Part shown: positions 2,686 through 64,000 of the stretch, in pieces
Layout of the letters: every line of letters begins with the position of its first letter
Position numbering within the stretch: position 1 is the stretch's first letter
From: a virus
Strand: one strand, 5' to 3'
Length of the DNA stretch: 64,000 nucleotides
IMG/VR virus record: IMGVR_UViG_3300015202_000005
Location: 1 to 64,000 of that record
Translations under genes and position numbers: made by a program
Notes under the pieces: generated by a model
What the model saw: only the letters and a program-made list of their open reading frames with translations
Databases searched by the model: none
What the model was told of the DNA's origin: nothing

Positions 2686-3540
2686 CTATTTTAATTTATT
2701 ATAAGTTCCCTCAATTTGTAAACAAACTGATTCTAGTGCTTTAGCATCTACTGTTGGATTTACGTATCCTAGTCCTCTTAATTCATTAATATCATAAATA
2801 TTGTTTACATAAGGAAACAATGTAATAGGGGTATTTGATATATTATAACTGTATACTTTTGCTGCTATATAATAACGTTCCATCATTATATTAATAACAC
2901 TAATTTGTGGTATTGTTAAATAGTAATAATCTAAACCTAATAATAAAGACAAAGCATCATTTGCAAACTGTTGTATAAATGTAAGATTTATACTACCTAT
3001 AATATTGCAATTATACGCTGTTCTTCCACTTACAGGGAGAAACGAATATTGTAATAATGCTGTATCTGTAAATACACTATTTATATAACTAATACCATTA
3101 CTATAAAAATCTGTTGTTATACTTTCTACATTTTGTACTACACAATCATGTGTATATAACACAAGGGCTTCGTTATTAATATATGTTTGATTTCTAATAA
3201 AAAATACATCACTATTAATATGTATAAATGGCAATGTTTCTGTTAATATACTTGTTAGTTTAGCTATTAATGGTAAACCATTTGGAACAGCATTACCATT
3301 ACGTAATAACAATGAATCATAAACATTATGTATTTCATCAAACGCTATAAAACCCTGATTAACAAATCTCTCAATACCTGCTGTATCTGAATAAAATACA
3401 GTTGTACCAAAATGTCGCTTTGCTTGCATTACAGCAAGTTTAAAACTTACTAGTTCATAATATGAAGTAGTATAACCATCAGTAGCCAATGCTGGATTAT
3501 TAGTTATTGGTTGTGACCAATATGTAAATACTGCTCTCAT
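2686..3540 (-). CDS. Glycosyltransferase-like protein (DUF6734-type, GT-A-like)
   Basis: The N-terminus MRAVFTYWSQP, the central HINSD (residues 107-111) inside FIHINSDVFF and the flanking layout resemble the DUF6734 group of Bacteroidota proteins. I recall that group as GT-A-fold, glycosyltransferase-like, with HxDxD at the metal site; here the first Asp is replaced by Asn. It has 284 residues, no signal peptide and no membrane segment. It lies inside the tail cluster between a small structural gene and the fibres, which suggests glycosylation of a virion protein or of a host surface sugar. The family assignment is from memory of the pattern, and the altered metal site means activity is uncertain. 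Confidence 0.5.
   Translation of the reverse strand: MRAVFTYWSQPITNNPALATDGYTTSYYELVSFKLAVMQAKRHFGTTVFYSDTAGIERFVNQGFIAFDEIHNVYDSLLLRNGNAVPNGLPLIAKLTSILTETLPFIHINSDVFFIRNQTYINNEALVLYTHDCVVQNVESITTDFYSNGISYINSVFTDTALLQYSFLPVSGRTAYNCNIIGSINLTFIQQFANDALSLLLGLDYYYLTIPQISVINIMMERYYIAAKVYSYNISNTPITLFPYVNNIYDINELRGLGYVNPTVDAKALESVCLQIEGTYNKLK
3021..3041 (+). repeat. Dispersed TTACAG hairpin motif, copy 1
   Basis: TTCTTC, loop CACTTACAG, GGAGAA: six pairs with one wobble. It lies inside the glycosyltransferase-like gene, antisense to it. Confidence 0.6.
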
Positions 3541-5489: not shown

Positions 5490-6479
5490 CTATGCTGTTA
5501 AATTAATAGTATCAATAGTACCTTCTTGGCTACTTTCACCTACAAATAAATTACCAAATAATGTTACTAAAGTTCCTTCAATAGCACTACCTGTTGGTAC
5601 AAATACCTTGAATATTGCAACACCTACATTTCGTACATTTAATGGGTCAACAATTTCTTGTGACTGTTGAAATGTCCAACCTGTATATGTTGTACCAGCA
5701 ACAACTAATGATTGTTCTTTAAACCAAAAGTTGTGAGCATAATAACGGAAACTGTCTCCCTGTACTAGGAAGCCTTCCTGTTCTTCTAAAGCAACTTGAG
5801 TGCTTGTATTACGACCTGAATTAAATAATACAGAACCGTTAGTACCATCTGTGTAAACACTTGCACTTGTAGAAATTCCACTAACTCCTACACCGTATAC
5901 GCGATTATCCTTTGCTGTCAAAGTAATGCCTGTTGTAACACCACCTAATACAATAGCAGCTGCTGTCATATCACTATTAGTGTTAGCATTAATCATTGCA
6001 ATCAGTCTGTCAAGAATTTTGTTTGACGTATCAGTTGCATAAGTAACCACAGCATAACGACGTGGAATCGTATGAATTAAATAACTAGGTGTCTTTGAAT
6101 AAATAGAAAAATCAAGTGTTTGACCATCTATAAATACAGATGGAAAACCAAATGAACCTACACTTGTTGCAACATTACCAATTGTAATTACTTGAATTGC
6201 AGGAGCATGATACAAACTTTTAGTTTGTATTGGTGCGTCTTTCTTAATTATTCCTGTTACTTTAAAGTTACCTGGATTTGCTGTTCCACAATATACTTTA
6301 AAACCTTTAGCATTAGCAAGTGCTGTATTTGTTGCACCAGCAGGAATTAAAATTCCATCTGAATCAACTAAAGCAATTGCACCTGTATCTAATAACCCGA
6401 CGTCTGATGCTACACTAATTGTACCACCACCACGTTTTGCTAAATAGCCCACACTCTGCGCAACTATAACTTGTTCCAT
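5490..6479 (-). CDS. Virion structural protein (crAss-like, tail or head-decoration)
   Basis: The 329-residue product is rich in Gly, Ala, Val and Thr and better balanced in codons than the fibre genes, as expected for an abundant virion protein. It starts MEQVIVAQSVGYLAKRGGGT and has a long beta-rich middle. It lies two genes downstream of the major capsid protein side of the operon, with spacings of 1 and 10 bases to its neighbours. No catalytic motif is visible. A tail-barrel, sheath-like or capsid-decoration role would all fit; the sequence alone does not decide. Confidence 0.55.
   Translation of the reverse strand: MEQVIVAQSVGYLAKRGGGTISVASDVGLLDTGAIALVDSDGILIPAGATNTALANAKGFKVYCGTANPGNFKVTGIIKKDAPIQTKSLYHAPAIQVITIGNVATSVGSFGFPSVFIDGQTLDFSIYSKTPSYLIHTIPRRYAVVTYATDTSNKILDRLIAMINANTNSDMTAAAIVLGGVTTGITLTAKDNRVYGVGVSGISTSASVYTDGTNGSVLFNSGRNTSTQVALEEQEGFLVQGDSFRYYAHNFWFKEQSLVVAGTTYTGWTFQQSQEIVDPLNVRNVGVAIFKVFVPTGSAIEGTLVTLFGNLFVGESSQEGTIDTINLTA
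5754..5773 (-). repeat. Dispersed TTACAG hairpin motif, copy 2
   Basis: On the minus strand GCTTCC-TAGTACAG-GGAGAC, an 8-base loop variant, codes for FLVQGD in the virion protein. Confidence 0.45.
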
Positions 6480-7535: not shown

Positions 7536-8438
7536 CTATAATTGTGAATATTTAACTCTTAATGTTTCTTTGGTTACGGCGTTTTCTGCTAAGTTTAACC
7601 ACAATACAGCTTTATCTAAATTAGGAGCAATAGGAACATTATCATACATAACAGATGTAGTACCTAATGGTCTATATAAGAAACCTACTCGTATATAACG
7701 TTCAATCATTGCTTTATCAGTTATACTTTTATCCTTAGCTATTTCTAAAAATGTCGTAGGTTGTTCTTCTGAAAATTTAGCAAGCTGAATACGTAATTCA
7801 GTAATTGTCCCTGTATAAGGTAAGCCGCCAAGTAATAGCACATCTTTAACTAATACTTCATCTCTCTGTATTTGCATACGTTTAATAATAGCCTCGTCTT
7901 TTAAATCTTGGCTTTCTTTTTCACGTTTAATCTGCTCTTCTCTACTCCATAAATAAGCACGTATTCTTCCACTTTTAGAAACGTCATCTTTTGAATTAGC
8001 TACCTCACCATACTTTAAACAGTAATGATATAATATATAGTGAAAATAATCAATAGGAGTTCCTACTCTATCTTCTACATTTATATGTCTTGTACTAACA
8101 TTTAATTCCATACCTCCATAAGGTATTGCAACTAAAAAATTATGCCAATATTCATCTAACTTACTATCCCATTCAATATGACTATTAGATACACCAACAA
8201 CCTTTGGCATAAGACGACGTTCCTCTTCTTCACTAAATATCGTTCGACCTAAAGGTCTGTTGCTAGTTCTAGATGCGTGAGCACCCCCTATATATACACG
8301 ATAATCTTCTGCGGAACTAACAGACATTCCTACTTCTGGAAGTATTGATTGTCTGTGTCGTCTTAATAACCAAATTTTCTTTTCTTTTGTATAAGGATAT
8401 TTAGTTTCTATTGCCACAACGGCTACTTTCTCTTCCAT
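7536..8438 (-). CDS. Head/connector-module protein following the major capsid gene
   Basis: This 300-residue protein sits immediately downstream of the major capsid gene. It has a basic, Arg-rich first third (KIWLLRRHRQS), a charged helix near 170-195 (SREEQIKREKESQDLKDEA) and no enzyme motif. crAss-like phages carry a conserved structural gene at this site. The codon for Met at 8438 follows a short gap after the capsid gene. A virion role is likely from its place; its exact position in the particle is unknown. Confidence 0.5.
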   Translation of the reverse strand: MEEKVAVVAIETKYPYTKEKKIWLLRRHRQSILPEVGMSVSSAEDYRVYIGGAHASRTSNRPLGRTIFSEEEERRLMPKVVGVSNSHIEWDSKLDEYWHNFLVAIPYGGMELNVSTRHINVEDRVGTPIDYFHYILYHYCLKYGEVANSKDDVSKSGRIRAYLWSREEQIKREKESQDLKDEAIIKRMQIQRDEVLVKDVLLLGGLPYTGTITELRIQLAKFSEEQPTTFLEIAKDKSITDKAMIERYIRVGFLYRPLGTTSVMYDNVPIAPNLDKAVLWLNLAENAVTKETLRVKYSQL

Positions 8439-9984: not shown

Positions 9985-11247
9985 CTAAACTATATTATTA
10001 AGTCGCAAATTGTCATAGTTTTTAGGATTGTTAATTCTTGTAGTTGGTATACTACTTTCAGTAGTAACCTTTGCTAAACGCCTACGCAGATTATCAACCT
10101 GTTGATTTTGTATTGCTTTTTTAACTACTGTATCTAAGTTTAAACCTTTAAACAAAAAGTAATCAATCTTTAATCTTTGTTCAGTAGCTAATGTCTCATA
10201 CGCAGATATTGCTTTAGTCTTACCATTACCAGAATCTTTACCTATAAAATCAAAAAACGATTGACGCTCATTCTCTGGTATTGCAATATCTTCTAATTTG
10301 CCTTTCATTACTATTTCTCTTACACCTGTCCAATGTTTATCTGTACTTTCTTTTAATCGCTGCACTTCATTAACACGTTCAGTTTCCTCATACTTAGTAT
10401 TGTTTATGCTCCAATTCTTTAAACCATCAATAGCTACTTTAACTAACTCTTTAGATTGTCCTGAATCAATTGCCATTTTAATAAAAGCATTTGCAGATGT
10501 TTCATCTAAATTTGATACTTTAGTATAATACTCTAATAAAGCTAGTTTAACTTGATTAGGATTAGCTTCGTCTATTTGTAAGTTAGAATAGTCTGGTGTT
10601 TGTAATTTTGATTGATAAAAATCTAATGGGTTTTTCCCTGTAATAATATGCTCCATCAATGCCTTAACTTCTGGCATCTGTTCTATCGTTTGCTTAAACT
10701 TAGTTTCATAAGATTTATTAGCAACATATTCTGTTAATGCTTTTATACTTTCACCATCATCTGTAAACTCTAAACTTGCACCATTTGCATCTTTAAAGTC
10801 AAAACCCTTTTCTGTATAATAATCTAATACAGACTTTAATCTAGATTCTGGTTTTAATACAATAATACCATCTTTATCTTCTGTATAATCGCCTTTCTTT
10901 TTTACTATTGTACCATCTTCTTGTACTAAATCTCCTGTGTCTTCATTAATATAGTAAACAGGTTCAATAGCTTTTGCTTCTGTATTTACTTGTTGTTCAG
11001 TAGGTCTGCTTTGTAACTCTTTAAGTTTTTGAATACCAGCTGCTTTATCTAATATTACATTACCTGTATTATTAATTAAATTACCATTAACATCAAAAAC
11101 AAAACCTCCTAATTCCTTTGCATTATCACTAGTATACATTGCTGTATCAAAACTTTCATTTTGTGTTACAACAGGTTGTGCTAATGGAGTTGCTTCTCTA
11201 TGTGCCGAACTTAACGATAAGTTATCGTAACTTGTATCACCTGACAT
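9985..11247 (-). CDS. Scaffold-like or head-assembly protein between portal and capsid genes
   Basis: This 420-residue acidic, Lys/Glu-rich protein sits directly between the portal and major capsid genes, the usual site for scaffold or assembly proteins. The first 90 residues look disordered, and helical segments dominate after residue 150. The C-terminus is basic (NLRRRLAKVT, about 388-397), as in many scaffolds whose end binds capsid. It starts 1 base after the portal stop. No protease motif is visible. Scaffold is an inference from position and composition. Confidence 0.5.
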   Translation of the reverse strand: MSGDTSYDNLSLSSAHREATPLAQPVVTQNESFDTAMYTSDNAKELGGFVFDVNGNLINNTGNVILDKAAGIQKLKELQSRPTEQQVNTEAKAIEPVYYINEDTGDLVQEDGTIVKKKGDYTEDKDGIIVLKPESRLKSVLDYYTEKGFDFKDANGASLEFTDDGESIKALTEYVANKSYETKFKQTIEQMPEVKALMEHIITGKNPLDFYQSKLQTPDYSNLQIDEANPNQVKLALLEYYTKVSNLDETSANAFIKMAIDSGQSKELVKVAIDGLKNWSINNTKYEETERVNEVQRLKESTDKHWTGVREIVMKGKLEDIAIPENERQSFFDFIGKDSGNGKTKAISAYETLATEQRLKIDYFLFKGLNLDTVVKKAIQNQQVDNLRRRLAKVTTESSIPTTRINNPKNYDNLRLNNIV

Positions 11248-11248: not shown

Positions 11249-13588
11249 TTATTTATTATTTATTTGTGATTTCTGAATATTAATCTTTTGTTGTTCTAAT
11301 CCTAGCTTTTGCTGTTTTTCCGTTTCTGAAACTTGATTTTTTCTCATTGTCTCAGATAACTTCGCAGCTTCTAAAGCTCTATTGTAATGACGTTGTATAA
11401 TTTCTTCACTATCACCTATACCATCATGGTCTGCATCTCCTCCTGCTGCATTAAATGAATCAGCTAATATCAATGATTGTTCTGTCTTACCATCAGCACT
11501 TATTTGTGCCACTTTAATCATTGCATCAGTTTTCATCTTTTCACGTTCCATTGCAAAGTTCTGTAATGTTTGTTCGTGTGTCTGCTGTAATTTAGCTGCA
11601 TCTTGTTGTACAGATTGTTGTATTTTTTCACCTTCTCTAATTAACTGTTTAATCTTAGAAACGTTAGTACAATCTACAATTTCAGCAATAGTCGAAGCAG
11701 GTACACCATTTTGTAACATAGGTTGAAACAACTCTTTAAGAGTATTAATCTTAGCTTGTTCATCAACACCATTAGATACGTGTACACTAAATTGACAATC
11801 CATATGTGTTGCACCATCTATATCTAACATACTACGGTCTCCTGTACTAGTAGTAAACATTTCTTGTTTACCACCTATCCAAGCCATCTTACTGTAATCT
11901 AATAAACCATCTAATTCAACTTCTCTATATCTTTCAAACATAGCTATCATTTCACGATTAGCTATTGCACTTCTAAATACAGCTTGTTCAGTTACAGACT
12001 TTCTATCAGATGCTTGTACTTCTCCATAACGTTGTCTATTCATTCCAACTACATCCCAAAACTCGTCTTTTATTTCTTTCATAAAAGACCACATCTCTTT
12101 CATATATTGACCTAATGATAAATCTATTTCTTTTATCGAGTTATAAGCAGCTAACGCCTTATCAGAACTTTCATCAAAAAACGCTATACTAAAAGCCGAT
12201 ATACTGTAAAACCATTTATCTGTGTCCCAACCTTTATCAGTAGGTATTAAACCTAATGGGAATAGTAATAGTTTGTCTTTGTTTTTAGCTAACGTTAACT
12301 CAAATCTGTAATGAAATATATTGTATAATAACTGGTATGATAAACCTTTACTTACAATACCTTCAATCGCATCTTTAGTATAACCCCAATAAGCACCGTT
12401 ATAAGGTAACTTACAAATAGATGTATTGTTTATTTGTGTACGTTGTACTTGTCCTACTCCATACTTAATATAACATTTTTCATCTACCATTAAACTATTA
12501 CCTACTCTCCATATTTCCCACCATTCATTTTCCCAAACCCATTGAACATCTAAATCACCTTTATCAGTTTCAATCTTGTAAAACTCATCTACTTCAGTTT
12601 CGTTAGGTTGACCAGTTTCATCTATGTAAGTAAGAATACCGCGTTTACTAAATGATTTCCAAACTATATGTTCTACTGTTATTAATCCTGATGCATTAAG
12701 TGATACTGTATTACCACCACGTAATTCATAAAAAGGTGAATTACCTAAACCTAATTCTTTATTTAATGTTAAATAATCAATTTGTTCATCTGATAAATAC
12801 TCTCTAAACTTATCTATTATTGTACTCATATTCCAATAGTATCTAGCTACTATTGCTTCTGCATCTTCTGCAAACTGTGAAGATGTGTCCCAACCTGCTA
12901 CTGATATTTGTTGAGGATGTATTACCTCAAATGTAACGTCTTTATGATTTATGTCTTTAAATGAAAATGACCAACCACATATTAAAAAGTTGTAGTATAA
13001 TCTTTGAAATTTAGATTCTAAATCTTGTGTACTATCTATATACTCTAAAGCCGTTTGTCCTCTAATAGCACGTTGGTCTAAATATGGTGTTTCTAATTCT
13101 TTCTCTAATTCTGATTTATCAACTTGTTGTTGTGCCTGTACATCAAACCCGTATTTCTTTAACTCCGATAAATACAATTCCGTAAGATGTTTTTTTACTA
13201 AGTTATCGTGATAATCTTTCTGTAAAGACAATACATCCGAGTTGTTAACTGCTACCGATATTGTATTAGGGCGTTCTTTACGTTCTCCTAATAACCTAAC
13301 TATAACAGGTTTAATTATATCATAGTTTCTTAACTTAGCAGGATAATCCTTTTTGGCATCTCCCTGTACAGCATAAGGATTAGTTACATATTCATAATCA
13401 TCTGGATTTATTAATCCTTTTGCTATATCAAAATCTGATTGAATCCTTAAATGTTCTGTTGATAAAAAACCATTGTATTGTACCCAATACAAAGCATTTT
13501 CTTTTATCCAAGCTGGTACAGATGCTCCATTTACTAATTCTAATTTCTTTGCTAATGGTAACTTCTGTAACGGTTTTATTGTACCCAT
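11249..13588 (-). CDS. Portal protein
   Basis: The 779-residue protein lies directly after the large terminase gene and before the capsid genes, and its length fits crAss-like portals. The middle (about 350-560) is rich in Trp and Tyr and holds the mixed helix/wing pattern of portals. The last 170 residues are a long Gln/Lys/Glu-rich coiled coil (for example QQSVQQDAAKLQQTHEQTLQ) that would form the portal barrel. A short DADHDGIGDSEE stretch (about 722-733) looks like a Ca-binding loop of the dockerin/EF-hand type. It would act as the dodecameric DNA gate at the head vertex. Confidence 0.85.
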   Translation of the reverse strand: MGTIKPLQKLPLAKKLELVNGASVPAWIKENALYWVQYNGFLSTEHLRIQSDFDIAKGLINPDDYEYVTNPYAVQGDAKKDYPAKLRNYDIIKPVIVRLLGERKERPNTISVAVNNSDVLSLQKDYHDNLVKKHLTELYLSELKKYGFDVQAQQQVDKSELEKELETPYLDQRAIRGQTALEYIDSTQDLESKFQRLYYNFLICGWSFSFKDINHKDVTFEVIHPQQISVAGWDTSSQFAEDAEAIVARYYWNMSTIIDKFREYLSDEQIDYLTLNKELGLGNSPFYELRGGNTVSLNASGLITVEHIVWKSFSKRGILTYIDETGQPNETEVDEFYKIETDKGDLDVQWVWENEWWEIWRVGNSLMVDEKCYIKYGVGQVQRTQINNTSICKLPYNGAYWGYTKDAIEGIVSKGLSYQLLYNIFHYRFELTLAKNKDKLLLFPLGLIPTDKGWDTDKWFYSISAFSIAFFDESSDKALAAYNSIKEIDLSLGQYMKEMWSFMKEIKDEFWDVVGMNRQRYGEVQASDRKSVTEQAVFRSAIANREMIAMFERYREVELDGLLDYSKMAWIGGKQEMFTTSTGDRSMLDIDGATHMDCQFSVHVSNGVDEQAKINTLKELFQPMLQNGVPASTIAEIVDCTNVSKIKQLIREGEKIQQSVQQDAAKLQQTHEQTLQNFAMEREKMKTDAMIKVAQISADGKTEQSLILADSFNAAGGDADHDGIGDSEEIIQRHYNRALEAAKLSETMRKNQVSETEKQQKLGLEQQKINIQKSQINNK
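13358..13380 (-). repeat. Dispersed TTACAG hairpin motif, copy 3 (weak)
   Basis: Minus strand keeps TACAGGGAGAT, but the left arm pairs poorly. It lies in the portal gene and codes for AVQGD. Confidence 0.3.
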
Positions 13589-13601: not shown

Positions 13602-15932
13602 TTAAGAAGTCTTACCCCACATTCTACTAAAGAATTTATCTTTGCTACTATGTGTCGGTTCTATTAATATACTATCTGTTATTTCTAAGTCTTGAAACTC
13701 TCCAACTATCATAGCTGAAATACAATCAAAATTACCTTTCATATTCCAACGTAAACTTTCTCTTAGTAACCTTTTACAAGAAATTGTATCTACAAAAGCA
13801 ATATCATGTCCATTTACATCTTTACCTACAACTCTACCAAAATGGTCACATAACATCTTTGCACCTTCCATCTTTCTTCTTAAATTTTTACCTATTGAAA
13901 ATCCATATACACGACCTGTCTTTCCACTTATCTCTTTTAAACTTGACATCTCTGGTTCTTCCTGTAACCACTTAGTCGCATTGTGTTGTTTAAAATAAGG
14001 TGCTACTTGTCCTCTATCATTTTCAAATAACATCTTAGCGTTGTAATACATACACAAAAGTAATAGTTGTTCGTTGTATTCATCTGTTGTTGCAGGTCTT
14101 CCAATCCATGACGCTACTATACGGTCTCCTTTTGACGTTGTTGCATTATTTGTCCTTTCGTGAACGTATGCTACACCTAATGAGCTAACTGATGAAATAT
14201 CATCTATGTCTTTATCTGTCGCATAAGGGTCGTGTTTTACATAATATAGGTTGCTCGGAGTATACTGTCTATACTCTTCTTTATCCTTTTCAGTTAACTT
14301 AAACGGAGATTCATACTCAATTATACAACCATGTAAATCATAACTCTTACCTAATATATCGTTTGTATCTGTAATAGGTAAGTGATACGCATACTCCTTA
14401 AATTCATCTAACGTCTTTAATCTAACTATACCTTTTAATACTTCTAATTTACCATACCTTGCATATCCTTTATAAATAGGAGACGATAGTATATTAAGAC
14501 GTGCTTGTATTTTGTCTGAATGTATTCTAAACAAATTCTGCGTACCTCTATTAAAAGCCTCTCTTGGAGTTATAGCACGTTCTGCAACCCACTTCATATA
14601 AGCACTTGCATTTGATTGTTCGTACTTTATAATCTTTCTTTTGTCATAATCTATCTTTGCACTTTCTAAATCTGAATTACCAAACTTATCAATGTGACCT
14701 TCGTAATTTTGTATGTGACCAAACCATAAACCACAAGGTGTATTTATTTGATTTTCATCAAATGTATTATTAAAAGGTAAACAGTTATAACCTGTTGGAT
14801 TGTAGAATATTTCAGATAAACCTGCGTAGTCTGCATCAGCACTACCAACTGTTCCCCAATATGTAGATTGTCCTACTGTGTACCCACCTGATTCAGCTGT
14901 TGATGATGTAGCTTCTATTGTTTCTAATAAATTAGGAAACGAACCACACTCCTCATATTTAATCTTACGTGCCATCTTACCACGTGCACAGTCTGGATTA
15001 TCAGCTGCTGATAAAGCTAATACCTTACTTAAATAACCAAATTCTCCTGACTGTCCTCTATATCTATAACCAAACTTTAATTCTGTTTCATTCTCTGTCA
15101 ACCTTCTTTTATTCCAATCTGTATGTAAATTAATAAAATCACTGTACTTATAAATCATGTTCATTATCCCATCACCTTTAGTCATGTATTTAGAATCATG
15201 CGCTATTAGTAATACAGTAATTTGTTTATTTAAATCAATCTCATCAAAAGCATCCCATGCACCTATATACGAAAAACCTTTACGACGGCTTTTACCTACT
15301 GCTATATCTAGTCCTATGTTTTCTGCAAACTTCATAGCTAACCAAGTATGATAGTGACCATCCCAAAAGTCTGGAAAATCATACGTAATCTCAGCCGTTG
15401 TTTTATCTGATAAACCTTTAAAAAACATACGTAATGTCTCTTCTGATTTATCTTTATTTTGTTGGTCAAAGCTATTTAACGTTGCATCTCTTACACTAAT
15501 CTCGTCTGGGTCTTTAGTTCTAGTAATAGGTGCAAAGTTTAAAAATCCTACCATTTTTGGAGGTATCCATAAGTTTTCAATATCTGTATCTGAATTACCG
15601 CCACTTTCATCTTTCCATTTTACAGGTAAAAATATACCGTTTCTTCTTCTATATTCCCACCTATCCCAAAACTCTTTATATGCTCTAGGATTCTTGTTAG
15701 CATCTATACTATGATACGTACCATATTTTTTATGATAAATTGCTGCATTACTTATTAAATGGGTATTTATAAATTTAATGTTTTCCCATTTATACAATTT
15801 AACTTTATTAGTAGTATCAAATGTATTAGTATAATAATCCTTTACCCATTTATAACCATCAATTATATGTTCTTGCATATATTGTTTTTCTTCCGAAAAG
15901 GTCATATTATACATTAACCTGTTGTTTGACAT
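13602..15932 (-). CDS. terL: Terminase large subunit (packaging ATPase/nuclease)
   Basis: The 776-residue protein has the terminase order of motifs. A divergent Walker A, AVGKSRRKGFSY, lies near residue 215, and Walker B with catalytic Glu (KIKYEECGS) near residue 335. The C-terminal RNase H-like nuclease starts with YVKHDPYATDKD near 595, followed by FENDRGQVAPYF and a late DxxSxKR segment. It would pump DNA into the head through the portal encoded next. The start at 15932 overlaps the upstream lysis-candidate gene by 26 bases; internal Met codons at residues 7 and 10 are alternatives. Confidence 0.9.
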   Translation of the reverse strand: MSNNRLMYNMTFSEEKQYMQEHIIDGYKWVKDYYTNTFDTTNKVKLYKWENIKFINTHLISNAAIYHKKYGTYHSIDANKNPRAYKEFWDRWEYRRRNGIFLPVKWKDESGGNSDTDIENLWIPPKMVGFLNFAPITRTKDPDEISVRDATLNSFDQQNKDKSEETLRMFFKGLSDKTTAEITYDFPDFWDGHYHTWLAMKFAENIGLDIAVGKSRRKGFSYIGAWDAFDEIDLNKQITVLLIAHDSKYMTKGDGIMNMIYKYSDFINLHTDWNKRRLTENETELKFGYRYRGQSGEFGYLSKVLALSAADNPDCARGKMARKIKYEECGSFPNLLETIEATSSTAESGGYTVGQSTYWGTVGSADADYAGLSEIFYNPTGYNCLPFNNTFDENQINTPCGLWFGHIQNYEGHIDKFGNSDLESAKIDYDKRKIIKYEQSNASAYMKWVAERAITPREAFNRGTQNLFRIHSDKIQARLNILSSPIYKGYARYGKLEVLKGIVRLKTLDEFKEYAYHLPITDTNDILGKSYDLHGCIIEYESPFKLTEKDKEEYRQYTPSNLYYVKHDPYATDKDIDDISSVSSLGVAYVHERTNNATTSKGDRIVASWIGRPATTDEYNEQLLLLCMYYNAKMLFENDRGQVAPYFKQHNATKWLQEEPEMSSLKEISGKTGRVYGFSIGKNLRRKMEGAKMLCDHFGRVVGKDVNGHDIAFVDTISCKRLLRESLRWNMKGNFDCISAMIVGEFQDLEITDSILIEPTHSSKDKFFSRMWGKTS

Positions 15933-17979: not shown

Positions 17980-18636
17980 TTATTCTCGGTTATAAGGATT
18001 GCCACCACCAACTACTTCTATCTTTTTTTGTTGTTCAGTACGCATCCTATTTTCTAAAGATTCAATTTCTGATAATGCTTTTTCTAATTTAGCAGGTGCT
18101 TCAAGTAATACTTTACTTGCATTTGCTAATACAGTATTTAACAATTCTTCCTGTGTTATAATTTGGTCTAAAGCATCTGGTTGAGCAGATGTAGCTTCTA
18201 AATTTAATTTAACTAAAGTATCATTATGTCTCTCTACTTGTTTACCTAAGTTTTCATAATACAATGCTGTATTTCTTAATCCTCGTTTTAATGCAATTAA
18301 TGCTTTAGCTGTTGGACTATAATCTTGTTGTATCTTAATATATTTATCAACAGCTCTTTTTATCAGTTCATCAGCTTCCCATTTTACAGGGAGTTCACAA
18401 GCCTCCTTAGCTGCTAAATTTCTTTCTTTATCACTTAAATTTACAAACTGATTATTGTCTGACCAATCAGCCATATAAAATATATACTCAATCTCTTTTA
18501 TAAAATTGATACGTCTTTCGTTTAATACAACTTGTCCTTTTCTCTTTACTACTTCTCTTATTTCAGTTACATAAAATATACTATCTAAATTAATTTCTAT
18601 GCTACCTGTTGCTTTATTGAACTTGATAAGTTCCAT
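17980..18636 (-). CDS. Helical protein of unknown function upstream of nuclease gene
   Basis: This 218-residue protein is mostly helical. The last third (about 150-205) is a coiled coil rich in Leu, Glu and Lys (LEKALSEIESLENRMR), ending in a Gly/Asn-rich tail. It lies in the first genes of the leftward transcript, before the nuclease and terminase. A small-terminase or packaging-adaptor role would fit the position but no motif proves it. Confidence 0.45.
   Translation of the reverse strand: MELIKFNKATGSIEINLDSIFYVTEIREVVKRKGQVVLNERRINFIKEIEYIFYMADWSDNNQFVNLSDKERNLAAKEACELPVKWEADELIKRAVDKYIKIQQDYSPTAKALIALKRGLRNTALYYENLGKQVERHNDTLVKLNLEATSAQPDALDQIITQEELLNTVLANASKVLLEAPAKLEKALSEIESLENRMRTEQQKKIEVVGGGNPYNRE
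18375..18393 (+). repeat. Dispersed TTACAG hairpin motif, copy 4
   Basis: CTTCCC-ATTTTACA-GGGAG in the 218-residue gene, antisense to it, where the coding strand reads ELPVKWE. Confidence 0.45.
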
Positions 18637-20999: not shown

Positions 21000-21033
21000 A
21001 ATTAATCAATAGACAATTAAACAATTAAAAATT

Positions 21034-41611: not shown

Positions 41612-41645
41612 AAGCCTGTATGCAATATGTGTACAGGCTTTTTTT
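41612..41645 (+). terminator. Intrinsic terminator
   Basis: AAGCCTGTA and TACAGGCTT form a perfect 9-bp stem with an 11-base loop, followed by five T. Confidence 0.85.
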
Positions 41646-41661
41646 ATATCTAATACAACTT

Positions 41662-51100: not shown

Positions 51101-52745
51101 TAGAAGCCCAACTAATATCTCTACTACCTTTTGTTAATAAATCTACATAATGTTTTGATTCATCTAAGTAAATCTTATCACGCATTGCATCAATTTGATT
51201 ATTAACAGCTATTGCTCTATCTTTTAAAAACTGGTCTCTGTTATAACGTTTAGATAAACCATCTAATTGAACAATAGTTCCTATTTTTTTATCATTTTCT
51301 TTATCATACTTTGTTTCTAAATCTCTACGTGCTTCAGCTTCTTTTCTACCTCTACCCATTCTAGCTAATCTATCTCCTAGATTTAATTTAGCTAATTCTA
51401 TTGTATCTAATTTAATTTTAGTAATACGACCTTGTAATTCTTTTAATGTTTCTAACTGTCCTGCATCTTTAATAAAATCTTGTAATTCTTTATCCTCAAT
51501 TACTTCTTTTTGTATTTCTTGTATTATTTCATAAGACGATAAATAGTTTAATAGCTTCTTTAACGTTTTCATTGATACAGTTTCTACATCAATTTCATTG
51601 TTGTATATTGGGTTTTTTATATCAGCAATTCTTTGTTCTAATGCTGTTATATTAGAATAACTGTTTTCAAGAAACTGTAAAAATCCTCCACGTAAATCCT
51701 TTTTAATTAATTCATTAACAGCTTCAATACCTTCTGCTTTTTTATCTTCTGGTATATTTGTTGAATTTTGAATTAAATTAATAGCATTTTTTCTGTCTTC
51801 TATTTTAGATATTACAGTGTCTAAAGCATCTTGTGTTCCTATAAAATTATCATACGTTGCACTTATTTCATGTTCTTTAAAATACAATTTTAATTTAAGT
51901 GTTATTGTATTTCTAGCATCATGTATTATCTTTATCTGATTAGTTATGTTTTTATCAATAAACCTAAAATCAGCTCGGTGTTGTGCATTTAATTCAGTAC
52001 GTATATTTATGTTGTTGTATATCTTAGCATTTATTAAATTATGTGCTAATGTTTCTATTATATCTTTGTTAGAACCTAACTTATCAGCTATTTTACGGAA
52101 AAATGAATTAAGCCATAGCTGCCAAGAAGACTTTTTAGACTGTTCAGTAAATAATTGGTCAGCCCTTACTGATACCGCTGTGGTTAGTAATTCTTTGTTA
52201 AATTGACGCAAATCTAGGTCTGGGTACAATTTTTTCATATCAGATTCAAGTTTTGAACCAGAAAGTTGAGAAATCCCCTGCTGTATCATTTCACCATTAT
52301 AAGGTAATGATTCAATTAGTACGTGACCTAGTTCATGTATTAGTGTTTCTTTCTTTTGTAATTCTGGGTTTATTGTTATAGTAAATGTACCATTACTATT
52401 CTTTATTTCACCTGGTACTGATAACTTTGCATCCTCCCTGTAAATAAGAGGAATATCTAGTTTAGCTAATTTGGCTTGAATTTTAGCAAATAGTAACGCA
52501 TCTTTCCTTTTTACAGGGAGAACCTCATTTTCTGCATTTATAATTAAATTGTTATCTTTAATCCATTCTATTGTTGGCTCTTTATTATTATCTAGTTTAA
52601 TTGTATTACCATACTGATTTTTAACAAAATCACTATTAGCTGTAATATAAGTATCTAGTGCAATTTTATGACCATACTCCTGTAATACATTATTGTATAA
52701 TTCTGATTTCTCACCATTAGGTGCTTTATATTTACAATCTGACAT
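48144..52745 (-). CDS. Large virion/ejection protein with zincin metallopeptidase motif
   Basis: The start at ATG 52745 gives 1533 residues; an open frame to TTG 52772 would run through the upstream terminator. A zincin motif HELGH lies at residues 137-141 within KKETLIHELGHVLIES. Long helical, Lys/Glu-rich regions fill the middle (about 250-650), and a hydrophobic region near the C-terminus (about 1415-1465, LGSIITLAVLSEVFAHF and YFLLFLAMRM) may insert in membrane. In crAss-like phages such giant proteins next to the virion RNA polymerase are packaged and injected with DNA. The peptidase may process them or cut a host target. Confidence 0.65.
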   Translation of the reverse strand: MSDCKYKAPNGEKSELYNNVLQEYGHKIALDTYITANSDFVKNQYGNTIKLDNNKEPTIEWIKDNNLIINAENEVLPVKRKDALLFAKIQAKLAKLDIPLIYREDAKLSVPGEIKNSNGTFTITINPELQKKETLIHELGHVLIESLPYNGEMIQQGISQLSGSKLESDMKKLYPDLDLRQFNKELLTTAVSVRADQLFTEQSKKSSWQLWLNSFFRKIADKLGSNKDIIETLAHNLINAKIYNNINIRTELNAQHRADFRFIDKNITNQIKIIHDARNTITLKLKLYFKEHEISATYDNFIGTQDALDTVISKIEDRKNAINLIQNSTNIPEDKKAEGIEAVNELIKKDLRGGFLQFLENSYSNITALEQRIADIKNPIYNNEIDVETVSMKTLKKLLNYLSSYEIIQEIQKEVIEDKELQDFIKDAGQLETLKELQGRITKIKLDTIELAKLNLGDRLARMGRGRKEAEARRDLETKYDKENDKKIGTIVQLDGLSKRYNRDQFLKDRAIAVNNQIDAMRDKIYLDESKHYVDLLTKGSRDISWASTYLLGADSADDDLIQTLTETLDSKDYDTQHVTDQAYRDYAGLFKDLQNKVKSSDVFTLYDKMLEHEWLHNEDGTITKNPLRRSQHIVNEYHSQFKLQYDELHRDYENKLGNSEFTDEDVQKAYSKYLKFKRENTVQQYNKEYTDVIDSLPIAERRLLKPILNKRKFILNKYAKQYINKKDVIFDSSVLPKTIRAIYDKNEAEFAKLLASNPIVNKNYNEYADLHSTFRPGYSRVKLRYANDVQYSDIDKPIDKWLNPQYTELLKEELKGGMQLNGLNEPTFIGSEEWKMYKTSLTGLQEDDKALPVWAKSNTDYRYRGGRITNTKLPSSQKENAERFGTEGVVGGLTQNIKNSFVRKTSTDYGGEQAGDTRESIADRTSVVASNEKGDTRFSVPIYFRYANEYENQSFDVPSLMVQNRWMATNYANKTDIKEDMEMARDLIGLREVPKVKSNGMFSGLNKLQQDLSGTRADVLEQSSQNVNQSNAYKLMTGIVENRIYGIKSRTNKQADRVTKLALNYTSQVFLGFNYLSAGVNYVAGTWNLRLQSAGGMDFNRKKLKAGRKIYAGDLLAVKQDAANEKGYQMFNLLRDKQNFIQRSRTNVLMEQLNIHQGNQPINRRYSADNMAKQYLNSDLGGFMHNAGEHAITGEIMYAILLDVKLLNEVGQYVTATGTTEDESKALTLNDVLKARNGVMTIDAPTHAGNLRMSEYNLPLNKQSLKVVSRKIADLRASSQGQYAESKTPLAKMYFYAKLVFSMRGWLPETYRQRLLGISTVGISRKDLKSEDMFYSRAKGHFQEGTYTSAIRASVELTKTVYAIRKELWYNKARLTQLKNAYGDVMNEYSRMEVANIRRACWELGSIITLAVLSEVFAHFRKELPKDGIVRPTSYFLLFLAMRMRNELLGYINPLEQWRNVKSLSASMDIIDSVGKFTEQLIHPLEVYKTGKLKGHYKLMNKFNHAFPYINQINRNVEDTYGYLIGDKSKTQ
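52432..52452 (-). repeat. Dispersed TTACAG hairpin motif, copy 10
   Basis: Minus strand TCCTCT, loop TATTTACAG (same loop as copy 6), GGAGGA: six pairs with one wobble on a different stem, coding IYRED. Confidence 0.7.
52503..52521 (+). repeat. Dispersed TTACAG hairpin motif, copy 11
   Basis: TTTCC, loop TTTTTACAG, GGAGA, antisense to the giant gene, 70 bases from copy 10 in the opposite orientation. Confidence 0.65.
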
Positions 52746-55800: not shown

Positions 55801-58800
55801 GTTACGTGATTACCATTTATTTTTTGAACTGTTACATTATTAGTAAATAATGATGTAAGTACAGCTTCTAATTTATCACTTAATCCTCCATTAAATAATG
55901 GTACTTTAAATCTGCCATCTTTTATTTCAAAACCTTTTAACGTATCTTCTGGTATACCTTTATCAATTGCTTCTTTTATTATTATATCACGTAGTTTATT
56001 TAAATTTTCAAATTTATAACCTTTTCTTGTACTTCTTGCACCTATTCTTTTAAGCAAATTTTGTTTACTTTCTACTATATTAGCAATCTGCATTTTATGT
56101 AGTTCATCTATTATAGCAGTTCCGTTTACTTTATTACCATTTAGTTCGTAAGTAGCTTTAGTATCTAAATTAGATATTGCAATCTTTTGAATTTGTAAAC
56201 CATGTTTATTTACTTCATCTTTTAAATGCGATGGCACATCTAATTGAATACCCCAATCAGCTTCTGGTGTTTCATGTACTGTTACGTTCTTTGCAAAATC
56301 AGGTAATAAATTACCCAAATCATCTGTTAAATTTGAAGTAGGAAACATACCTACTTTTATTGCAGATTGAAAATATAAAGCATCTGCACCAACACTTTTC
56401 ATATTATTTGCAATATCTTCTAACTGTGTTCCTTTTGTAAGTAAAGGTAACAACGTTACAACTGATGTCTTAATTTGCAATGACCGTACACTATTTGTAA
56501 TTGGGTCGTATTTACGAGTATAACTAAAAGGTTTTAATACTTGTAAATAACCATTTATACGAGCTAATTCATTTAACTCAGATTCGTTTAGCTTTTCAGC
56601 ATTTTCAAACTTTGACCAAATAGCATCATACATTACATTCCATCTACCTGCTTTTTTTATTAAGTATTTAGATTGGTCTAATGTAATATAACCTTGAGCA
56701 TCAGCTGTATTAATTTTTAAATATGGCTCAATAGTACTACGTATCAATTCTTCTTTTTTATTACTAGGTGTAAAGTTTTTATTAGTAATATTTTCACTAA
56801 TTAACATATCTTTAAATTCCGGGTTTGTAATATCTAGACTTTCTTTTAATCCTGATACTATTGTACTTATTTCCGAACTTTTAAGTTCTATGTCTTTACC
56901 TATTATATACCTATGATTCTTTTTACCGTTATCTAAAGTAGTTTGACTTGGTGAATCAGTTTGCTTAGAACGTTTGTTTGTATCTTTTACATTTTTATAT
57001 TCTGATACGTTACCTGTAAAAAATCCTTTTTGTTCAGTTAAATGTAAGTAGCCATTTATAGCTATATCACTTATAAACTGTTCAAATTCTACCTTTTCAT
57101 CATCATTACTATAATTATGTAATAACCGTACATTATCAGTATTTTTCATTTTACTAATAATAGGTTGTAAACTCTTATATCTATTAAACGTATCAGTAAC
57201 TAACCAATTAGTAAAACTATTTACATAGTCAACTACTTGAGATGCTACTTGTTGTTTTTTAGCTAAATCTTCTATATATAAATTATGTATGTCTTGACCT
57301 TGTGCATTAACAGCTTTAGTAAATTCAACAGCACCTTTTACTAGCTCCCCATTTTCTTCTTCTTTATCAAACATATTATGTTCTCCATTACCAAGCAGAT
57401 GTTTCATGTTATGAAAATCAAACACACGACCTGTAACAAATACACCTTCATTTTTTATTGAATTTTGAAATAGTATAGGCTTACTGTTATTGTCAAGTTT
57501 TACATAATGATAATATAATTGTTGTCCTACAATATTATCTTTTTCTACTGCTACAAATTTATGGTCATCTGTTTTGTTAATAGAATTGTCAATTAATTTA
57601 ATAATTGCTTTTTCTCCCCTTATATCAGAAACCACGCCTTGTTTACTAGAACTACGTACTATATCCCCAACAGTCATATTAGGTTTTACATCAAATGAAT
57701 TTTCATTAAAATCTGATACATTATATACATTATTTTTATTAGGATTATATGTAGCAAATAAATAGTTACGTGCATTTATCATTCTTTCTTTTTCTTGTAA
57801 ATATGTATTATACATACTTCTAAAAGCTAGACTTGTAGTGTCGTTAAACTTTCTATTTTGTAACACGTATTTACCTTCCTCTATTACAGGGAAATGTACA
57901 CCTTGTATAATCCAGTTGTTTGTACTATCACTTTTTATTTCAACAGGCATTGATACAAAACCTGGCTTACTTGTTAAATATGTAACTAATCTACTTAAAT
58001 AAAAATCATCATCACTTTGCTTATCATATTGATAACCTTTTCCATTTACAGTATCTTTTAATCCATCTGTTTTATGAATATTAAAATTCTCTAAATTGTT
58101 AAGGTTTAAATCATTAATAGTTAATTCTGATAAATCTTTAGTTAATCCATCAGCTGTTAATAACCCATTTTTATTAAAATAGTTACTATGTCTAAATGAA
58201 CTATCTTGTAAATAGTCTTTTAATGTTTCTAATACTTCTTGTTTAGCTCCATCAACATCCATGTTATATACATCAAACACTCTTTTTATTTTATCAAAGA
58301 ATCTTAAACTCCAACTTGGTTTGTTATAACTATAAACAAGATTACCATTAGTATCTAAATAAGATGCTTCTTTACTATCATATAAAAAGTATGAATAAGA
58401 ATCAGCTATTTTATTTAAATTACCACTATCTCTAAATTTTAAATTAGACTTGTTTGTAGTATCTGCAAACACAGTACTTTTTAAAAACTTAAGTTGTTTA
58501 AGTATATTATCATTAAAATAACTAATAATATCACTATTTCTATTATCTGTTTTAGCTTTTATTAATACGTAGCTATTTAATATAGATTTAGTAATTTTAG
58601 CAGGTAAATCAAAACCTATTAATTTAGCAAGTTTTTGTGTTTCAATTACAAGTTCATCTATATTTAATGTTCTTTCTCTTACTTGTTTATCTAATTTCTG
58701 TATTGCATCAGTAGCTTCAATTTCAGAAGCTGTGTTGTATTGTGATGTATATTCATCATTTTGCCTATTAGCATTATGTTCACTTATTAACAACTTAATG

Positions 58801-61800: not shown

Positions 61801-64000
61801 AAATTATTAATTATAGTTTGAGCATTTGCACTTAAATCTGATTTAACTACATCTCGTATAATTGATTTAGGTACAGGATTTTCTTCTTTTTTAATTCCTA
61901 ATTCTTCTATTGCATCAATATTTATTTTTTGTTCAGCTTGAGATTCCCCTTTTACAGGGAAACCAACTTCTTTTTTAGGTCTGTCACGTTTCTTTTTTTC
62001 TTGTTCTACTGTTATTGGTTTAACAACTTCCATTAACTCTTCAGCAATTGTAGACTTATCTTCTACTTTTTCTTTTACTAATTCTTCTTCCTGGTCTTTA
62101 GTAATTTTAGCTTGTTCCTCTTCTTTACTAATATTGTTTTCTAATTTATAAATTTCATCGTTAATATCGTTTAACTTTTTATTTATTTTTTCATTGTTTT
62201 TAAAATCAACCTGTAAATCTTCAATGTCATTTTTTAGATTTGTTAATCTAATTACTTTTTCATCATTACTTTCTGTATTTTTTGCATTTTTATATGTTGC
62301 ATTATGTGAATTAATTAAAGACTCTAAAGCATAATCTCCATTACCTACCTCACTGTCTTTACTATCTATATTTTCCTCAACATTCTCTACCTTTTTTTCT
62401 TCAGTTTTAGCAGATGTATTTACTGTATCTGTACTTCTATTATTATATCTATTAGTAGCACTATCAATTATACGTCTAGCTTCTTCTTTTTTATCAATAT
62501 CATAATCAGCAAATTCATCTCTTTTTTTATTTAAATATTCAAGATTTACTTTTCCTGTATTTTCAGCTGTTATAATATCAGAATGTAATTTATCAATTCC
62601 TTTAGTTTCTTCAACTGTTTTAATATTAGCTTGTTCTGCTCTAATCATTTTGATTAAATTAAAACCTACTAATTTACTGTGCGCTTTCTCTGATATATTA
62701 GATAATGATTTTAAATAAGTAGCTTCTACTTTAGCTTTAACAACACTACCGTCAACTCTGTTAATAACTTCATCCATTGTTTCATCTAAATATTTAGATG
62801 AATTGTTAGTATGGTAATCATCTAAAAACTTAGATTGCTCCTCTAGTTTTGCAATCTCATTATTAATCAGTTCTTTTTTCTCTGCATTTACTTTATTATC
62901 AGTCTTTACTTTTTCTAATTGTTGAATAGTAGCTCTAATACCTATTTTGTTTAAAGCGTTATTACCATTTTCAATACTTTGTAAATCCTGGTTTTCTCCC
63001 TGTAAAAGGGAACTCTTGGTTTCTGATAATTTAACTCTGTCTCTTAAATCATTATTATTTAACTCACTAATTACATATCTTTGTAATGCATAATCTTTTA
63101 CAGATTGGTCTGCATTTTCTGATGCTAATTTGCTAGCATATTTGTCATATATTCTTTGTGTAGTTTCTATTTTATGTATAAAATCATTAGCTATATTTGC
63201 ATGGTCTTCATCTGTTAAATTCTGTTGAGTAGCATTACTTAATGTTTTTAATTCATCACCACCTTTACTACTTTCTAACATATCTTTTAACAACTCACTG
63301 TTACCATGTTTAGCTGCATTTAAGCTAAGACTAACTGCTAGGTTGTCTTTTACATTAGCAACACTAGTAGTAAAATCTTCATCAGTTATTTTGCCATCTT
63401 TCTTTTGTTGTACTAACGCATTAATATCTGCATTTGCTGTTTTAATTGTAACTGCTCTATCTTTAATTTCATTAATACGTTGTGTTTCTGGTGTAACTAA
63501 ATTAGGGTGAAACATTTTATCAACTCTACTTAGTATTTTTGGAGCTACGCCACTAAATACCATACCACCTAATAAACCAAAAAATCCTGCTTCATGTGCT
63601 TTACTATCAGCCAAACTTTCTACATATTGATTTGTAATATCACTACCAGTTATATTTCCTTTATTATTTAATTCTTTATCAGCTTTCTTTTCTCCTAATT
63701 TTGTAGAATAATAATTTTGAAATTCCTCTAAATACTCACTACCAGATTCTACTGCTAAATATTTTGTATAATTACCTAACTGCTTTGCTCTACTTGCAGC
63801 TGTGTATTCTTTACCCATACTTTCAGCTTGTGCTTTAGCAATACCATGTGTCATTTCTTCACTTTCAGAAGCTAAGTGACTACCTAGTAATCCTGCCATT
63901 TTATAAGCTGCAAATACTTCTAATACATCAAATACTAAGTTTACAGAGTTAGCTTTATAGTCAACAAATGCTGCTTTATTTGCCATAAATTTAGCAAATT
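52815..64000 (-). CDS. Giant virion RNA polymerase-type protein (5' end beyond the window)
   Basis: The frame stays open past the first Met in view (63986) to the right edge, so the protein is longer than the 3723 residues counted from there. The decisive motif is WDFDVDSLYN: Asp 2857, 2859 and 2861 match the DxDxD metal-binding loop of crAss-like virion RNA polymerases, a single-chain relative of two-barrel polymerases. A zincin-like HEAFH sits at 1319-1323. The N-terminal part (about 1-1000) is largely helical and coiled. It would be packaged and injected to transcribe early genes. The dispersed hairpin motif occurs three times inside. Confidence 0.8.
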   Translation of the reverse strand, partial: FAKFMANKAAFVDYKANSVNLVFDVLEVFAAYKMAGLLGSHLASESEEMTHGIAKAQAESMGKEYTAASRAKQLGNYTKYLAVESGSEYLEEFQNYYSTKLGEKKADKELNNKGNITGSDITNQYVESLADSKAHEAGFFGLLGGMVFSGVAPKILSRVDKMFHPNLVTPETQRINEIKDRAVTIKTANADINALVQQKKDGKITDEDFTTSVANVKDNLAVSLSLNAAKHGNSELLKDMLESSKGGDELKTLSNATQQNLTDEDHANIANDFIHKIETTQRIYDKYASKLASENADQSVKDYALQRYVISELNNNDLRDRVKLSETKSSLLQGENQDLQSIENGNNALNKIGIRATIQQLEKVKTDNKVNAEKKELINNEIAKLEEQSKFLDDYHTNNSSKYLDETMDEVINRVDGSVVKAKVEATYLKSLSNISEKAHSKLVGFNLIKMIRAEQANIKTVEETKGIDKLHSDIITAENTGKVNLEYLNKKRDEFADYDIDKKEEARRIIDSATNRYNNRSTDTVNTSAKTEEKKVENVEENIDSKDSEVGNGDYALESLINSHNATYKNAKNTESNDEKVIRLTNLKNDIEDLQVDFKNNEKINKKLNDINDEIYKLENNISKEEEQAKITKDQEEELVKEKVEDKSTIAEELMEVVKPITVEQEKKKRDRPKKEVGFPVKGESQAEQKINIDAIEELGIKKEENPVPKSIIRDVVKSDLSANAQTIINNLPDTSFFIPTLASTADNIDGGELIKNNDGSYSLTKELEPAYKELRNIKEGDTVTIKEGKPNPYETKYKIRPIHIISNGVTIGKLNTIAGVNNGINKTLTLIETANKTKSPVSSLTDLLKKERLTIQFLETVIPQVLTGKEFTTVVTTKTSGTLIENEWSPLNDKLTPYELFQVKDSYTLESIKDGKEHYAPVGSNSIYYNADRAYTEGLMYAMVKGLDGKDIPIYLNTATVNSNDTNKLKNSIIDLITLMQNANRNGTTIRFDSAVIKNHLKDIKSIIRTNTVLDSSGIFYSPTFKVTENGIDFIYDDGTKLASLKIKDNIYLELQSLKNVQKQYTNKEEFETKAEVKKEKLLSDIGDTGYNNIIEELTKTLGTLQYNIPYSLTKSFEDDALTSAEKSKVITELKGRLLTNAGVLLDSKGNKISNFISKLGSGEKAKGNFRIELSGKITDSGSKSDVVASEKSEVELIPTIETETVNSVKTADLPTSNSVFEEKTPINTSNLDSVVVERSTDYEAPQSGLDGDFMRQSGILETPIKQDEVVIKNNINRILGKNNNTQIVENLVHNGTKLYGMYHNDMITIARFSPRGVEYHEAFHRIMDLSLTNDEKSAVLAEAKSRYGKSANLDESLAEEFRSYANNKDTDYPLLNAIRNFFDKILYYINNILGNTSIDNLFRGVNSGVFRTTNNTSSGITNYMTEESLANDFTPQETEAYTNYMFGKTAEWYSKFAIYNNAELAKLAIINDKTVLPIITSNEVVMAGLVNSLKSSTDVVKQLALTRIIEDVKKGKNSELLNALKDKVKLKLDIKLNINEDVSYVNDDTVDFSPEQKKSWDDKLDARKSLKLEFSSELRWLIISTQKLSKFDYSFDGEKVVFDTSKKEQYENPAGLPQYLDFDRVYPLLQARMVNSGNLKEMMSRLFELRTVEPSIGLLWLKLNQMNTNYDVKGNRTDYKDSFLNKWYINFNKSYVTAEHVRVTAVPDGLLIKRDISNKEHTLSNSWSNNIKLLISEHNANRQNDEYTSQYNTASEIEATDAIQKLDKQVRERTLNIDELVIETQKLAKLIGFDLPAKITKSILNSYVLIKAKTDNRNSDIISYFNDNILKQLKFLKSTVFADTTNKSNLKFRDSGNLNKIADSYSYFLYDSKEASYLDTNGNLVYSYNKPSWSLRFFDKIKRVFDVYNMDVDGAKQEVLETLKDYLQDSSFRHSNYFNKNGLLTADGLTKDLSELTINDLNLNNLENFNIHKTDGLKDTVNGKGYQYDKQSDDDFYLSRLVTYLTSKPGFVSMPVEIKSDSTNNWIIQGVHFPVIEEGKYVLQNRKFNDTTSLAFRSMYNTYLQEKERMINARNYLFATYNPNKNNVYNVSDFNENSFDVKPNMTVGDIVRSSSKQGVVSDIRGEKAIIKLIDNSINKTDDHKFVAVEKDNIVGQQLYYHYVKLDNNSKPILFQNSIKNEGVFVTGRVFDFHNMKHLLGNGEHNMFDKEEENGELVKGAVEFTKAVNAQGQDIHNLYIEDLAKKQQVASQVVDYVNSFTNWLVTDTFNRYKSLQPIISKMKNTDNVRLLHNYSNDDEKVEFEQFISDIAINGYLHLTEQKGFFTGNVSEYKNVKDTNKRSKQTDSPSQTTLDNGKKNHRYIIGKDIELKSSEISTIVSGLKESLDITNPEFKDMLISENITNKNFTPSNKKEELIRSTIEPYLKINTADAQGYITLDQSKYLIKKAGRWNVMYDAIWSKFENAEKLNESELNELARINGYLQVLKPFSYTRKYDPITNSVRSLQIKTSVVTLLPLLTKGTQLEDIANNMKSVGADALYFQSAIKVGMFPTSNLTDDLGNLLPDFAKNVTVHETPEADWGIQLDVPSHLKDEVNKHGLQIQKIAISNLDTKATYELNGNKVNGTAIIDELHKMQIANIVESKQNLLKRIGARSTRKGYKFENLNKLRDIIIKEAIDKGIPEDTLKGFEIKDGRFKVPLFNGGLSDKLEAVLTSLFTNNVTVQKINGNHVTLISDALITKFKNTKIKEDTNLPTGIEIHDSIKERYESPNFRLRTMQLINGKVQNAEAFLPAWTKKFFNNGERISINDIPQELREFLGYRIPTEAKYSGVLFDVVGFLPEEMDSSIILPHELVAQTGWDFDVDSLYNMGRAVEKTKDGINAIRYDDSKTVEKNTKQQRDSRIFDIYKAIWSNPYHYREITTGGRMDDPKALIAKYNKLAANPIKDYINANTIIGQDKFRQLAIKGIGLKGIAASINGYAPILQIVKAQFTDGFVVKYDKSKFDIKQLIEKYGEDNVLYNDNVVYINHKNIAHNVDGTYTNVEGNNTTDHLAQMLAMIVDIIKEGVPTNINEYTYNTFAAMVLSGIPIEYAGMFIAQPVIKKLANMSMKSTGITADKQKIISTVKKQFQIELLKQLHKKEVISEEFLKKQSKDSYGKPSGIFTFNKETKKWEYNGNDDKFYLERADTEKILGYDPDRQIALSQEELDKQITLNEVVRVKDTDILIHLYTTQLRLLELWNGNLKLGYKKIGDGLGDAIRLFATDKIGAGFDATESFSDTASRVNRNSVITIKRDTQDVSVNKLFTKDSHRYKTLKAFIDNSNVPSLELFSPLFIQQSNYFKGAQDNILTGINKSEVTRKIANTFLTKLIYLNSPYLQDFDKKEVLGIDKKPTLGKINAITDISIQDFKKLSAANQLYYVKQFADVDNTSFLHYLNYEIDEFNINKKQIHNIVFDKPKVSDNLDKDLIKSFEDILYGDTGNNEINPYMKVLGKNLIAYDMFTAGGIYNANSWNNIIPTEYLENVMKMPEYLYDLQDSMKVGFSSAEDFGTHYSGKMIVYNDNVNKNYEYSDVLNLNVDDKLFNIYNAYLRELFIINNSDNVNIVPRLSGIKEINEGMDTILISRSRVSQLDIDNTPEIYFTHNTVISDEYGQERDTIINKLYKGVITQESQDKYTIFEISKQGGKFIGLGIDENYVKIRNVESEEIYANKVKMMNEGKIDEEKGLDCV
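57876..57893 (+). repeat. Dispersed TTACAG hairpin motif, copy 12
   Basis: TTCC, loop TCTATTACAG, GGAA, antisense to the polymerase-type gene where the coding strand reads FPVIEEG. Confidence 0.5.
61944..61961 (+). repeat. Dispersed TTACAG hairpin motif, copy 13
   Basis: TTCCC-CTTTTACA-GGGAA, five pairs with an 8-base loop, antisense to the coding phrase FPVKGE. Confidence 0.5.
62994..63012 (-). repeat. Dispersed TTACAG hairpin motif, copy 14
   Basis: Minus strand TTCC, loop CTTTTACAG, GGAG; it codes for SLLQGEN in the polymerase-type gene. Confidence 0.5.

Follow-up and report, generated by a model that had tools for sequence, protein, structure and literature searches.

The 64-kb window analysed here, part of a 79,856-bp viral record, carries many copies of a short motif, TACAGGGR, whose relatives recur in the genomes of crAss-like phages and, in most of them, are spaced evenly along each strand. 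Our preferred reading, a tentative one, is that the copies are dispersed single-strand initiation (priming) sites recognised by one of the phage's replication proteins, probably the primase. During copying of the phage genome, each strand could become exposed as a single-stranded template, and a copy on the exposed strand (core TACAGGGA, in many cases preceded by a pyrimidine tract able to fold onto GGGA) would be recognised by a replication protein that the phage encodes; its own DnaG-family primase is the most plausible one. A primer laid at the copy would then let complementary-strand synthesis begin at regular intervals on either strand. The distribution of the copies is observed directly; what we infer is that the process moving along the DNA is replication, that the primase does the recognising and that the sites serve for priming. 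The exact replication mode of the Crassvirales was described as unknown in a 2023 review (PMC10136315). The findings suggest that the motif marks a hitherto undescribed point of control, most likely over crAss-like DNA copying, and its presence across families of the order and in cultured phages, such as crAss002 of B. xylanisolvens and 'Rudgehvirus jaberico' of B. cellulosilyticus, offers a concrete handle on Crassvirales replication. An incomplete literature search returned no published description of such motifs in crAss-like phages, and an earlier description is possible.

Enrichment and form of the motif in the window

There are 17 matches to TACAGGGR in the window, compared with 1.45 expected from dinucleotide shuffles (0 of 100 reach 17), and 20 in the whole record. 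The 8-mer TACAGGGA is the most over-represented of the record by likelihood ratio and is present 19 times, against a mean of 2.35 and a maximum of 6 in 300 codon-preserving shuffles in which the proteins were held constant. The original prediction had put its count of 14 far above the approximately one match due to chance and had proposed a codon-preserving comparison; the excess is confirmed, and it holds in that comparison as well. All 14 of its copies are present, with coordinates that mark the starts of ~20-nt hairpins, ~9–10 nt from the core. The window contains three core matches beyond these (7815−, 10642− and 49167−, the last being TACAGGGG), and the record past the window contains three more (72608−, 76520+ and 76870−). 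The core behaves as an all-or-none unit: none of 24 one-mismatch variants is enriched, and their stems never exceed 4 pairs. The motif is without a match in Rfam, and a pattern scan of IMG/VR with the G000 form returned 55 contigs, none comparably enriched among the 47 checked.

Relative to genes, the scored sites of the window's genome divide into 9 sense and 9 antisense copies, and the peptides encoded across the window copies differ. The mixed orientation and the varying peptides that had been reported from the window alone are both borne out, as is the view that selection acts at the DNA level on an element independent of protein sequence and transcription direction. These results support selection on DNA or on single-stranded nucleic acid, independent of protein and of the direction of transcription.

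A pyrimidine-rich arm that is complementary to GGGAR lies 5′ of the core in ~16 of the 20 copies, with a loop of 7–8 nt, in agreement with the arm pairing originally described. The four arm-less copies (7815, 10642, 13368 and 49167) may be chance matches. In the window's genome, the arm pairing score is 11.3, compared with 4.45 for random flanks. When left arms are permuted among copies, pairing is 10.7 against the actual 11.3 (p = 0.043), and the same permutation gives no significant stem covariation in eight other genomes. Arm variation consists mostly of C/T changes opposite fixed Gs, giving G·T wobbles. The earlier claim that stem bases change together is accordingly not sustained, with permuted arms pairing nearly as well as the real ones, and the hairpin as the defining feature is likewise unsupported, as two relatives (G061 and G064, described below) retain the TACAGGG(A) core but have no arms to match those of the window copies. 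A foldback hairpin is possible as a secondary feature, and complementary arms would lend themselves to recognition in single-stranded DNA.

A separate, ~40-nt hairpin is found in two copies in the window (20953–21011 and 21756–21814) that are 83% identical; the copies read TATGTAGAGTAAACC...GGTTGCTCTACATA and TATATAGAGTAAACC...GGTTACTCTATATA, and the stem changes are apparently compensatory.

Table 1. Motif copies and replication or identification genes located in the window
Feature	Position	Strand	Remarks
Copy with pyrimidine arm	3021..3041	+	TTCTTCCACTTACAGGGAGAA
Copy with pyrimidine arm	5754..5774	-	CTTCCTAGTACAGGGAGAC
Core without pairing arm	7808..7815	-	TACAGGGA; possibly chance
Core without pairing arm	10635..10642	-	TACAGGGA; possibly chance
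Core without pairing arm	13358..13378	-	TACAGGGAGA; may be chance
Copy	18375..18395	+	CTTCCCATTTTACAGGGAG
Copy	26053..26073	+	CTCTTACTTACAGGGAGA; outside called ORFs
Copy	33006..33026	+	Within PolA-type DNA polymerase gene, sense
Copy	33739..33759	-	Within DNA polymerase gene, antisense
Copy	37432..37452	+	GTTTCCTCTTTACAGGGAAAC; 7 contiguous pairs
Copy	43700..43720	-	CTTCTCTATTACAGGGAGAA
Core variant without arm	49160..49167	-	TACAGGGG; possibly chance
Copy	52432..52452	-	TCCTCTTATTTACAGGGAGGA; inverted pair with 52512
Copy	52502..52522	+	TTTCCTTTTTACAGGGAGAA
Copy	57875..57895	+	CTTCCTCTATTACAGGGAAAT
Copy	61943..61963	+	TTCCCCTTTTACAGGGAAAC
Copy	62994..63014	-	GTTCCCTTTTACAGGGAGAA
Large terminase	13602..15932	-	phrog_6681; places the phage among crAss-like phages
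DNA polymerase, PolA-type	32766..35045	+	phrog_17; matches crAss001 DNA polymerase I
DnaB-like helicase	37869..39080	+	PF03796, 31 bits; crAss001 replicative helicase profile search, E 1e-42
crAss-type DnaG-family primase	41620..42735	+	Candidate motif recogniser; profile search, E 4e-105; tree

Related motifs in crAss-like phages

Judged from its predicted proteins, the window genome is that of a crAss-like phage, as originally assigned: three proteins, the portal, the large terminase and the major head protein, have matches among crAss-phage PHROG families, and the terminase finds its best matches in the phage collection among crAss-like phages (~25–30% identity). All Intestiviridae genomes tested, among them p-crAssphage, crAss002 and 'Rudgehvirus jaberico', carry related motifs (YTCCTYTAYRGGGGRR, in genus-specific versions) at 10–36 copies each, as do one Crevaviridae genome and several environmental relatives, with site thresholds set from simulated genomes so that fewer than one false site is expected per genome. 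This wide occurrence in the Crassvirales and the even spacing on each strand were not visible to the original prediction. The nearest IMG/VR relative of the window genome (G061; terminase 40% identity) has 15 copies of TTACAGGG in 44 kb, compared with 0.8 expected, and an 86-kb crAss-like contig binned in a MAG (G064; terminase 35%) has 21 copies of TACAGGGA. Two environmental genomes, G062 and G063, carry a CTAYGGGCAAG-type and a CTANGGGGGAAA-type motif, respectively. The phage p-crAssphage, the commonest human gut virus, has ~32 copies of ATCCTCYACGGGGRGTC, and cr3_1 has 34 of TTCCTCTACGGGGGAAC. Counts in the remaining carriers are 34 in cr110_1, 35 in cr11_1, 20 in cr271_1, 28 in cr8_1 (CCTTTTACGGGGCGGCT), 22 in ctbg_1 (CCTTTACGGGCCAG), 33 in crAss002 and 36 in cr107_1 (CTCCTTTAYGGGGGAA), 30 in 'Rudgehvirus jaberico' (TCCTTTACAGGGG) and 10 in cr127_1, where the version is ~35 nt long (specified sequence about 35–40 nt). 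No motif of this kind turned up in cr85_1, cr116_1, cr114_1, the Azobacteroides phage or FpV4.

The version of the motif shifts genus by genus, with all copies shifting together, and this concerted change implies a phage-encoded recogniser, in line with a co-evolving factor that acts in trans. The version present and the positions of its copies could be used to mark genera when crAss-like genomes are classified.

Several further observations were made in these genomes. In crAss001, CTTCTGGAG is enriched, with 40 copies of CTTCTGGA against 7 expected and 34 of TTCTGGAG against 6, and its 20 best sites show fairly even per-strand spacing (p 0.006); it is possibly the Steigviridae counterpart of the motif. 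Four p-crAssphage copies (6026, 28076, 28177 and 58726) have a GC-rich hairpin-like sequence just 3′ (for example, GCGTAGCGAAGCGGAGCG and GGACGAAAGTCC). Words of the CCATAACC/CCATCACC type are strongly repeated in the genome G053 (13 against 0.4 expected), where they probably form a tandem coding repeat. No relatives of the p-crAssphage PolB were found in IMG/VR. Two crAss-like contigs of 86 and 72 kb, L240 (G064:C25) and L241, lie in MAGs labelled Bdellovibrionales and Rickettsiales, probably through misbinning or as unrecognised host links.

Spacing on each strand and competing explanations

Across 14 genomes, same-strand gaps are more even than random placement would give (Fisher p = 1.6e-25) and also more even than the same positions with strands relabelled (Fisher p = 2e-20). 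Because evenness is lost on relabelling, the regularity belongs to each strand. Same-strand spacing is typically 5–9 kb, for the most part 5–8 kb, and ~17 kb in cr127_1. In each Intestiviridae genome, and likewise in G062 and in G063, all p values against the uniform null are ≤0.0006. In G061 and G064, the evenness is not significant in either genome alone (p 0.08–0.15, a range that includes the window's genome), and the window's own genome displays only a trend (p = 0.08–0.14), so that the claim of even spacing for the window genome rests on its relatives. The two strands are independent in most genomes; opposite-strand sites are closer than expected in G062, G063 and cr127_1, and pairs less than 300 bp apart are nearly all of opposite orientation.

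Sites that are evenly spaced on each strand, whatever the genes, the transcription and the opposite strand, are best explained by a process that runs along one strand. Priming fits this spacing because no exposed stretch of template would then be further than a set distance from a start site. Counting against priming, a spacing of 5–17 kb is long for ordinary lagging-strand priming. A compositional gradient between successive same-strand sites, sought as a footprint of replication in what is a weak test, gave nothing convincing.

A Chi-like site would account equally well for the orientation-specific even spacing. A helicase-nuclease moving in from a DNA end would meet this directional signal and switch from degradation to recombination, and the site would mark the phage DNA as self; with sites evenly spaced in both orientations, ends would be protected wherever they arose. 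Chi (RecBCD/AddAB) and the motif share a short, asymmetric, G-rich core (7–8 nt here), orientation specificity and a density of ~1 per 5 kb per strand. Genes of the recombination type are also present: the window has an exonuclease-family match, a weak RecT match, a Dda-like helicase and Gp157, RecT and GAM-like annotations are found in p-crAssphage and crAss002, and the PD-(D/E)XK nucleases of most crAss-like phages (PMC7886860) are counted on the same side. The crAss-like motif is, however, longer than Chi, with a specified sequence of 15–25 nt (more in cr127_1, as given above), partly dyad-symmetric and genus-specific within phages. Its versions differ even among phages that share a host genus, a phage of B. 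cellulosilyticus having TACAGGGG and one of B. xylanisolvens TAYGGGGG, which makes a host enzyme unlikely as the reader, and the 11-mer TTTACAGGGAR is confined to the phage contig in the MAG of G064, a bin that may not be the host. A phage-specific Chi-like role is the main rival to priming and is possible, if unlikely; were it true, the motif would be a phage-encoded mark of self and non-self.

With respect to genes, 146 copies are sense, 114 antisense and 89 intergenic, compared with 30 expected intergenic; most copies lie inside ORFs, and almost half of the genic copies are antisense. The intergenic excess, the concerted genus-wide change of all copies, the opposite-orientation pairs and the closeness of opposite-strand sites in three genomes would all suit dispersed binding sites for a direction-reading phage protein that organises or segregates DNA or regulates genes. 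A protein that binds double-stranded DNA has no obvious need for per-strand evenness with mostly independent strands, and the sites, unlike stoperators, have no preferred orientation with respect to transcription; we consider such sites quite unlikely to be the answer. Stoperators exert their effect on transcription elongation and are oriented along it, whereas the orientation of the motif is independent of transcription and its sites are mostly inside genes. What the motif shares with the stoperators of mycobacteriophages (PMC9283540) is the presence of many asymmetric sites across a phage genome.

The balance of sense and antisense copies argues against a function in mRNA and against transcription-linked models. 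It thus weighs on the proposal of an RNA element that acts in transcripts from either strand as a signal for processing, termination or protection, which would account for the complementary arms with G·U-type pairs and for the loop of C(UACG)G type seen in cr3_1 and p-crAssphage. The arms are without covariation, and sense copies occur within very long genes of essential type (for example, two in the RNA polymerase gene of p-crAssphage), making an RNA element improbable. Similar to N4-type phages, whose virion RNA polymerase uses hairpin promoters, crAss-like phages have a giant virion RNA polymerase and single-stranded sites capable of forming hairpins. The motif differs from such promoters in that it is not at gene starts, in addition to its high proportion of antisense copies.

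Sites are in the same place in relatives of ~90% identity or above (31 of 32, 32 of 33 and 20 of 20 aligned sites). Between genera, few positions can be aligned, of which some are shared and others lost, mostly by substitution. The original prediction had suggested a palindromic mini-element, and genic copies in both orientations, together with a gap at the site in a few between-genus alignments, would be expected of one inserted in genes in the manner of REP or Rickettsia palindromic elements. Those elements, too, are small palindromic repeats found in either orientation, but the motif is without visible mobility and sits evenly spaced at fixed places in conserved genes. Near-total positional conservation, losses that are mostly by substitution rather than as clean insertions, even spacing per strand and an invariant core without decayed copies make a mobile element very improbable.

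Replication genes and the candidate recogniser

Priming at particular single-strand sites has its nearest parallels in single-strand initiation (ssi) systems, which include ssiA and ssiB of the IncQ plasmid RSF1010 with its primase RepB′, the complementary-strand origin of phage G4 and mitochondrial OriL. Strand specificity, a possible stem-loop and inverted pairs at short distance are shared with the crAss-like motif. The ssi sites are read by a primase that the element encodes, whereas the crAss primase is here a candidate reader only, and the crAss-like motif differs in having 10–36 copies placed evenly genome-wide, on both strands and mostly in genes.

Primase is regarded as the universal replication protein of the Crassvirales (PMC10136315). 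The window primase matches no Pfam family, and only an iterative profile search that started from the annotated primases of crAss001 and crAss002 detected it, an approach used because the DnaG_N Pfam model lacks the sensitivity needed for primases of this type. Every near-complete motif-bearing genome tested has a crAss primase gene, and the primases of motif bearers form a single branch of the primase tree (84/90). This branch is suggestive of a link, although it may only mirror phage phylogeny, and the motif-poor phages crAss001, cr85_1 and cr114_1 also carry the primase, which counts against the link. Two other proteins were considered and rejected: RepL as recogniser, which has no correlation with the motif, and DnaB as a correlate, which is present in the window's clade but for which the Intestiviridae and Crevaviridae genomes tested gave no match. 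The N terminus of the window primase apparently lacks the usual zinc-binding cysteines and histidine. The primases of motif-bearing phages have an extra N-terminal insertion compared with those of crAss001, cr85_1, cr114_1, FpV4 and MT835492.
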